The notes beneath the pieces are model-generated. The model was given only the letters and a program-made list of their open reading frames with translations. It had not been told where the DNA came from and ran no database searches. A stretch of DNA of 12,681 nt from the NCBI GenBank assembly GCA_030152405.1, contig JASLJL010000457.1, positions 1 through 12,681 of the forward strand, in the 5' to 3' direction. The translations under genes and the position numbers were made by a program. This document shows, in pieces, positions 10,800-12,127 of this stretch; positions within the stretch are counted from its first letter, which is position 1; the number at the start of each line of letters is the position of its first letter. The DNA comes from Gordonia sp. (in: high G+C Gram-positive bacteria). Its GTDB lineage: Bacteria > Actinomycetota > Actinomycetes > Mycobacteriales > Mycobacteriaceae.

Positions 10800-12127
10800 T
10801 GGCGGTGAACACGTCTGCGACGGCGGCGGGGCTCGGTGACTTCATCGACGCCTCGCCGTCGCCGTTTCATGTCTGCGCCACGGTTGCGGCGGAACTCGAC
10901 GCGGCGGGCTACACGCAGGTCTTCGAGGACCGCCGGTGGGAGATCGTCGCCCGCGGCTATGTGATCCGCGGCGGGTCGATCATCGCGTGGGACGCGACGG
11001 TGGTGGAGGAGTTCGAGGCGTACGCGCCGCAGCCGTTCCGGATCGTCGGCGGCCACACGGACAGCCCGAACCTGCGAGTCAAGCAGCATCCGGATCGGAT
11101 GTCGGCCGGTCTCGCGACGGTTGCGCTCGAACCGTACGGCGGCGCCTGGCTGAACTCCTGGCTCGACCGCGATCTCGGCCTGTCGGGTCGGCTGGCCTAC
11201 GACGACGGCGGCCGTGTCGCGCACGCGCTCGTCCGTATCGACGAACCGGTGCTCCGCGTGCCGCAGCTCGCCATCCACCTCTCGGAGGATCGCAAGGGCG
11301 TCCACGTCGATCCGCAGCGCCACGTGGACGCCGTGCGCGGAGTGGGTGAAGCGCAACCGCTTCTGGACTACGTCGCCGAGCACGTCGGAGTCGATCCGGC
11401 CGCAGTCCTCGGCTGGGAGCTGATGACGCACGACGTCACTCCGTCGCGCATCATCGGTTCGGCGGGCGACCTTCTCAGCGCACCTCGCCTCGACAATCAG
11501 GGCACCTGCTACGCCGGTCTGCGCGCGCTGTTGGACGTCCCTCGACTCCGCTCGGAAACAGGGGATCGATCGGAGTCTCCTGATCCCCGAGTGAAGTCGA
11601 GGGGAATCGCGATGCTCGCTCTCTTCGATCACGAGGAGGTCGGATCGGGATCGGAACGAGGAGCGTCCTCGGACTTCCTGGTGACAGTCTGCGAACGGAT
11701 CGTCGGATCGCTCGGCGGTGACCGCGACGAGTTCCTGCGCGTCATGGCGTCCAGCATCTGCGTGTCGGGCGACATGGCTCACGCCACGCACCCGAACTAC
11801 CCGGAACGTCACGAGCCGACACATCACATCGCCGTCAACGGCGGGCCGGTGTTGAAGGTCAACCAGAATCTGCGGTACGCGTCCGACGCGGTCGGCGAGG
11901 CGGAGTTCGCGCTCGCCTGCCGAGACGCCGGGGTTCCGTTGCAGAGGTACATCCATCGCGCGGATCTGCCGTGCGGCTCGACGATCGGCCCGCTCACCGC
12001 GACGCGCACCGGTCTGCTGACCGTGGACGTCGGTGCGCCACAGCTCGCGATGCACAGCTGTCGCGAGCTCATGGGCACCGACGACGTCGCCATGTACTCG
12101 GCTGCGCTCGCCGCGTTCCTGCGCTGA
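10799..12127 (+). CDS. M18 family metallo-aminopeptidase
   Basis: A 442-residue dizinc aminopeptidase (aspartyl-aminopeptidase family, called apeB or pepC in relatives), cytoplasmic, removing N-terminal residues, classically acidic ones, from peptides. Expected metal ligands are all visible: His86 in GGHTDSPNLRVK, Asp232 in APRLDNQG, Glu279/Glu280 in FDHEEVGSGSERGA (one the catalytic base), Asp325 in SGDMAHATHPNYP and His419 in QLAMHSCRE. The late motif ADLPCGSTIGP is also present. The start overlaps the purQ stop by one base, and a strong terminator follows 5 nt after the stop. Oddity: residues 247-268 (DVPRL...VKSRG), just before the LALFDHEE strand, form a hydrophilic charged stretch about 15 residues longer than I recall in the mycobacterial homologue. 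It is encoded by a 65-bp palindrome (11539-11603). All catalytic residues survive, so the enzyme is probably active. Confidence 0.93.
   Translation: MAVNTSATAAGLGDFIDASPSPFHVCATVAAELDAAGYTQVFEDRRWEIVARGYVIRGGSIIAWDATVVEEFEAYAPQPFRIVGGHTDSPNLRVKQHPDRMSAGLATVALEPYGGAWLNSWLDRDLGLSGRLAYDDGGRVAHALVRIDEPVLRVPQLAIHLSEDRKGVHVDPQRHVDAVRGVGEAQPLLDYVAEHVGVDPAAVLGWELMTHDVTPSRIIGSAGDLLSAPRLDNQGTCYAGLRALLDVPRLRSETGDRSESPDPRVKSRGIAMLALFDHEEVGSGSERGASSDFLVTVCERIVGSLGGDRDEFLRVMASSICVSGDMAHATHPNYPERHEPTHHIAVNGGPVLKVNQNLRYASDAVGEAEFALACRDAGVPLQRYIHRADLPCGSTIGPLTATRTGLLTVDVGAPQLAMHSCRELMGTDDVAMYSAALAAFLR
11539..11603. repeat. Intragenic REP-like palindromic element
   Basis: Arms at 11539-11555 (CCCTCGACTCCGCTCGG) and 11587-11603 (CCGAGTGAAGTCGAGGG) are reverse complements at 15 of 17 positions; one difference is a G-U pair in RNA. 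Inside, GGGGATC (11561-11567) is complementary to GATCCCC (11582-11588), an alternative shorter stem. The whole element is read through in frame by the M18 aminopeptidase. Dispersed repeats containing CTCGACT...GAGCG-like arms occur between genes in many actinobacteria, from general memory; the link is inference. Confidence 0.65.

Follow-up and report, generated by a model that had tools for sequence, protein, structure and literature searches.

A palindrome within a Gordonia M18 aminopeptidase gene is probably an inverted pair of REP-like hairpin repeats

What is a 65-bp palindrome doing inside the reading frame of a conserved enzyme? We analysed a 12,681-nucleotide stretch of DNA from Gordonia sp. 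(hereafter the window), in which a sequence-only reading had pointed to such an element in an M18 aminopeptidase gene and likened it to repeats that insert into genes. Sequence comparison indicates that the element very probably consists of two units of a dispersed REP-like hairpin repeat, set as an inverted pair and read in frame. The relevant features are as follows.

10799..12127, plus strand: host gene, M18 family aminopeptidase of 442 aa (open reading frame and translation; PF02127; NCBI names of homologues; solved M18 relatives)
11538..11562, plus strand: hairpin unit 1, forward, TCCCTCGACTCCGCTCGGAAACAGG, read as PRLRSET.. (window sequence; 42-site consensus)
11563..11578, no strand: spacer separating units 1 and 2, holding part of the nested inner stem (sequence, fold)
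11579..11604, minus strand: hairpin unit 2, inverted, reverse complement CCCCTCGACTTCACTCGGGGATCAGG, read as ..PDPRVKSRG (window sequence; consensus)
11539..11603, no strand: 65-bp palindrome formed by units 1 and 2 as an inverted pair (arms, RNA fold)

The palindrome is imperfect and carries a nested stem, as the sequence-only reading had described. Its 17-nt arms (11539-11555 and 11587-11603) have 31 nt between them and are complementary at 15 of 17 positions (88%). The predicted RNA fold of 11533-11609, which contains the nested inner stem, reaches -43.4 kcal/mol compared to a shuffle mean of -29.3 (sd 3.4; z = -4.12), and 1 of 200 shuffles was equally good. The element does lie in frame in a conserved enzyme gene, also as claimed: the M18 frame is intact and runs open straight through the palindrome, and 11539-11603 encodes VPRLRSETGDRSESPDPRVKSRG, directly ahead of the segment running to FDHEE. 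Alignment of the protein to the best-matching solved M18 proteins opened 18 gap columns at the element; an AlphaFold model (mean pLDDT 59.6) was set aside.

Resolved into its parts, the palindrome comprises a ~26-bp hairpin unit, CCCCTCGACT(G/C)CGCTCGGGGANCNGG, present twice in facing orientation. Unit 1 falls one base short of the consensus in length, and unit 2 differs from it at two positions. Elsewhere in the window, a weak relative of the repeat head with three mismatches lies on the minus strand at 12413-12428, near the next gene, and G. malaquae has the same; the window holds five weak matches to the head, a number that shuffles reach in 2 of 200 cases. The window end (12648-12681) is itself an inverted repeat (CCCATCCTGCCGTG..CACGGCAGGATGGG), a structure frequent at short-read contig ends and either real or an assembly end effect.

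We compared the M18 loop, counted in residues from RLDNQ to EEVG, across the best 80 of 518 M18 loci from a scan of genome contigs. It spans 53 residues in the window, 50 in G. spumicola and 45 in G. malaquae, and 36-41 in 76 of the 78 remaining orthologues. The extra segment in the window therefore amounts to ~12-17 residues, in line with the earlier estimate of about 15, and among these 80 loci the insert is common to the window, G. spumicola and G. malaquae only. Two loci (L015 and L023, from G. amarae and a related MAG) have 49-residue loops near 6669-6816 whose sequence is unrelated to the element; the hairpin core is absent from them by eye, and they represent a separate lengthening. One record named Kitasatospora arboriphila (L053) has a loop near-identical to that of Williamsia muralis (L059) and is possibly a mislabelled genome.

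Window and G. malaquae DNA share 88.6% identity across 5.5 kb. Spumicola M18 retains a palindrome, of a different length; malaquae M18 retains the left arm alone, the right arm being gone. The simplest history is one insertion that predates the split of the window species, G. spumicola and G. malaquae, followed by decay to differing degrees, and the extra loop would most likely be a tolerated passenger.

Copies of the unit are dispersed through the genomes of these two relatives. The 16-nt head CCCTCGACTNCGCTCG, found in the spumicola and malaquae M18 genes, has 25 and 19 exact copies in the respective genomes and none for reversed-pattern controls. For CTCGACTNCGCTCGGG the counts are 30 in spumicola (G001), 20 in malaquae (G002) and 0-4 in each of 57 other Gordonia genomes. 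Allowing up to two mismatches, CCTCGACTGCGCTCGGG gave counts in nine genomes of 63 in spumicola (control 3), 46 in malaquae (2), 19 in G047 (4) and 1-8 in each of the other six (controls 0-4). The 14-nt core CTCGACTNCGCTCG is present in 127 copies in spumicola and 112 in malaquae (reversed-pattern controls 0), 519 in G. zhenghanii, 36 in G047, 15 in G. liuliyuniae and 0-3 in each of six further genomes (controls 0-1), counts that rule out its restriction to the spumicola-malaquae clade. The zhenghanii core (G005) has a different outer stem (GGT..ACC) and belongs to a separate, far larger and mainly intergenic expansion of the hairpin. Each of the 68 other genomes in a class sample had 0-3 copies of the core versus 0-2 for controls, and a family sample of 150 other genomes, malaquae not among them, had no copy of the subfamily-A pattern CTCGACTNCGCTCGGGGANC. 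The earlier proposal that the arms are dispersed actinobacterial repeats thus holds for dispersal, in spumicola and malaquae, and fails for an actinobacteria-wide distribution. A plasmid and phage search with the 65-nt element yielded partial matches only (E 0.4-0.5). Both signs of insertion named by the sequence-only reading, several dispersed copies and orthologues lacking the loop, were found, the copies in relatives rather than in the host itself; we infer from the sister species that the repeat is probably dispersed in the window's own host as well.

A 1.5-kb spumicola segment bounded by inverted copies (L123), considered as an autonomous element, is really one gene, presumably a porin, present twice head to head on contig C10. 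Head-to-head duplications that repeat genes found elsewhere occur on spumicola contigs C10 (L123) and C9 (L239) and are probably assembly artefacts; a further gene is likewise repeated on C9 and C10. L123 was excluded from the 42-site consensus and the coding-frame tally; it was included in one 76-site set and in the whole-genome counts (CCCTCGACTNCGCTCG, CTCGACTNCGCTCGGG, CCTCGACTGCGCTCGGG with up to two mismatches, the class-sample core and the spumicola total of 127).

Across 42 spumicola and malaquae sites, the subfamily-A unit reads CC-CCTCGACT(G/C)CGCTCGGG(G/A)ANCNGG with abrupt edges, where only the flanking positions count as evidence because sites were picked via an internal 17-mer; its RNA fold is -8.0 kcal/mol. 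A second subfamily, B, reads CNTCTCGACT(G/C)CGCTCGANGANCNGG, and 103 spumicola sites divide into 62 B, 30 A and 11 of other form. Units stand between and inside genes as singles, tandems and inverted pairs, with additional units in direct order downstream at 17 of 74 sites and upstream at 2 of 74, and inverted at 4 of 74.

With the 103 spumicola sites picked by core alone, the outer stem covaries. Positions (-2,15) pair in 84 of the 103 copies (shuffle mean 32.0, maximum 47), with GC, CG, TA and AT all seen, and (-1,14) in 93 of 103 (mean 53.8, maximum 69); (-3,16) shows a small gain, 81 versus a shuffle value of 74.5. In zhenghanii, where 400 kb were sampled (L338-L357), (-2,15) pairs in 63 of 65 copies (shuffle mean 33.5, maximum 44). 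Slid pairings reach 32-39 of 103, and two of them, (-1,15) at 39 and (-2,14) at 38, slightly exceed the shuffle maximum of 37; since the copies fall into subfamilies, part of the covariation is shared subfamily descent. That outer stem pairs covary between copies argues that the hairpin, not the peptide, is conserved.

We examined 103 distinct spumicola cores out of the 127 counted, using a home-made hexamer score as the coding test. Inside coding frames we flagged 23 of 103, with 7 more where the frame ends in or after the core, compared to 561 of 856 for positions drawn at random from these loci; the repeat therefore avoids genes though it is not excluded from them. Zhenghanii gave 4 of 65 sampled cores versus 444 of 769 random positions, and the intragenic share differs between the two species (Fisher p = 0.005; 0.014 using 20/100). 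Two of the 23 internal flags are weak (L110 and L205) and M18 is counted twice, once for each unit, leaving 20 positions in 17 genes. A Pfam family was assigned to 19 of 20 host proteins submitted (L266 had none), and the families include SRAP (yedK), Lhr, M1 aminopeptidase, D-Ala-D-Ala ligase, E1-E2 ATPase (which we take to be kdpB), CobN, YjeF/Carb_kinase (presumably nnr), CDC48-type AAA, MMPL and EamA. As the frame stays open at intragenic repeats, the expected product of the repeat is an additional hydrophilic loop, linker or tail.

All six reading frames are used across genes: PSTALG (purC), PRLRSG (M18), LDSARG (IclR-like), SAVEG (yedK), RAQSR (ddl) and ERSRG (lhr). The names purC and, below, dihydroorotase-like are our own assumed assignments. 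Consensus units contain no stop in any of the six frames, tandem arrangements included, and the window's own copy has a stop in two. Openness as a selected trait is unsupported, as 64% and 31% of shuffled units are equally stop-free, and the property is therefore mostly one of composition.

Besides M18, we compared 14 genes with orthologues from the sister species and from as many as five Gordonia outgroups: yedK, pepN, ddl, lhr, IclR-like, DUF35, purC, dihydroorotase-like, the L087 gene, kdpB, nnr, cobN, cdc48-like and flavoprotein. Orthologue comparison covers 9 of the 17 well-flagged spumicola genes, with an NRPS insert (L127) lying outside it; the EamA piece had no orthologue match in the other four genomes. 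In M18 and the 14 other genes the outgroup orthologues are without the element peptide, less cleanly so for ddl (the spumicola loop is intermediate), cdc48-like and flavoprotein (variable linkers), kdpB (a single outgroup) and dihydroorotase-like and the L087 gene (tails variable in some outgroups). Inserts in yedK, lhr, nnr and purC are present in spumicola and not malaquae, and those in pepN and DUF35 in malaquae and not spumicola; each was either gained once the sisters had split or lost from the one without it. The L087 gene of malaquae has 24 bp nested in an older unit common to spumicola, with no evident target duplication, and other insert sites were too diverged for duplication to be judged. 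In the malaquae CDC48-like AAA gene (L323), the linker that precedes the first AAA domain contains several PPVERSRDA-type units in tandem and in frame; spumicola has fewer, and this is possibly a length-variable protein linker.

These comparisons bear on three other explanations. First, the palindrome could work as an mRNA hairpin near the end of the purSQ-M18 transcript and be retained for its effect on RNA stability or termination; the sequence-only reading had raised the possibility of a strong hairpin there. Its strong predicted fold and the presence of a palindrome in spumicola M18 too would suit such a role, and REPs are described as elements that may generally act in RNA (PMC3733652). 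However, the right arm is gone from this position in malaquae M18, which weakens this idea, the palindrome is absent from the 76 short-loop orthologues among the best 80 of 518 loci, and the ~26-bp unit sits in unrelated genes in both orientations. An Rfam scan of 10700-12681 returned nothing above gathering score, its two weak sub-threshold matches lying elsewhere than the palindrome. We therefore consider an RNA role for the palindrome improbable.

We give just as little credence to template switching, in which one arm is copied onto the other and the repeats are local expansions rather than mobile units. This process is discussed for other coding palindromes (PMC6649704) and would agree with the frequency of downstream tandem units, for example in kdpB and the CDC48-like linker, but local switching leaves unexplained more than 100 scattered unit sites and single units in one sister only. 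Template switching may nevertheless shape copies once inserted. A lineage-specific loop from ordinary indels, palindromic by chance, is the least credible, and by far: this loop does vary among M18 proteins, as the unrelated 49-residue versions in L015 and L023 attest, but the dispersed exact copies of the head, with controls at zero, contradict it.

For the favoured reading, an inverted pair of dispersed REP-like units, we can propose how such units might move. They would spread when some activity copies the DNA hairpin in single-stranded or extruded form, and selection would remove harmful inserts, leaving in-frame ones in tolerant places. The covariation may come from a mobiliser that recognises the hairpin or from template-switch correction of the arms, and our data fit both; a duplex-binding protein would presumably need no covariation. 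Our search for a mobiliser covered Y1 transposase and reverse transcriptase. A Y1 (RAYT) transposase (PF01797) was found in 0 of 9 Gordonia genomes, with the control ringing in 5 of 14, leaving RAYT unsupported as mobiliser; reverse transcriptase, with one match in malaquae (G002) and none in spumicola (G001), is likewise unsupported. A broader picture, which we put forward tentatively and hold to be doubtful, is of a hairpin that spreads without a known REP-type transposase and continually generates new protein loops, linkers and tails in one Gordonia lineage, its units open in six frames and its 27-bp tandem steps, as in kdpB, letting segments grow in frame.

The best-known palindromic repeats that lie in frame are those of Rickettsia and the intragenic REPs. 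In the actinobacterial lineage studied here, well-flagged internal inserts occur in at least 17 genes of spumicola. Sisters with and without single inserts, together with covarying stems, make movement without RAYT and the cost of a random enzyme loop testable in culturable bacteria.

How does the repeat compare to known systems? Di Nocera et al. 2013 (PMC3733652) describe REPs from over 80 species, some of them intragenic. The Gordonia repeat resembles the REP/BIME elements described there in being a 20-40-bp hairpin with tens to hundreds of copies and species-specific variants, mainly intergenic, arranged singly, in inverted pairs and in clusters, with some copies in frame inside genes. In this broad sense it is REP-like, with a ~26-bp hairpin, 127, 112 and 519 cores in spumicola, malaquae and zhenghanii, and most copies outside flagged frames (80 of 103 in spumicola, 61 of 65 in zhenghanii). 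Unlike REPs, the Gordonia unit is without an unpaired GTAG or CGTC tag, its stem is shorter and bulged, and its loop is 6 nt. Neither the subfamily-A nor the subfamily-B consensus has a GTAG tag at an edge. CGTC REPs, as that paper describes them, are without a dedicated transposase, a trait that the Gordonia repeat would share given no Y1 in nine genomes. The unpaired CGTC/TGTC/CCTC tag, 8-9-bp stem, 4-5-nt loop and CCA-like tail of that class were not found in the unit: subfamily B can begin with CGTC, yet the second base, which pairs with position 15, is G in just 32 of 62, and folded Gordonia units have loops of 4 or 6 nt and stems shorter than 8-9 bp.

Small non-autonomous MITEs (ERIC, Correia, YPAL) are also reported to join reading frames, but they are ~100-200 bp, mostly with target duplication (PMC2229807); the Gordonia repeat showed no element of that size, and at the clean nested 24-bp site no target duplication was evident. 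Nematomorpha mitochondrial genes are likewise described as containing palindromes inside translated sequence (PMC6649704); those have perfect long arms scattered in mitochondrial genes, whereas the Gordonia repeat is a dispersed family of imperfect, decaying copies. Literature searches pairing Gordonia or actinobacteria with such repeats, mostly of open-access coverage, found no report of the Gordonia family, and the main text of PMC3733652 does not use the term 'actinobacteria' and mentions untagged REP-like repeats of M. tuberculosis.

The resemblance to Rickettsia palindromic elements (RPEs) suggested by the sequence-only reading holds for the way of working and not for membership. Like RPEs, the Gordonia repeat is a palindromic repeat in frame in unrelated conserved genes, here M18 and 14 others, adding a peptide segment (PMC10969869, PMC2229807, PMC3733652). 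RPEs are described as 105-150-bp elements with a conserved encoded peptide (PMC10969869, PMC2229807), and these descriptions set them apart from ~26-bp units used in six frames in another phylum; we found no ~105-150-bp element with a peptide conserved in one frame in the Gordonia repeat. The intragenic repeats of R. conorii are given as RPE-4 and RPE-6, both CGTC REPs (PMC3733652). The best reading of the Gordonia family is a REP-like hairpin repeat that is RPE-like in its way of working and is not an RPE.
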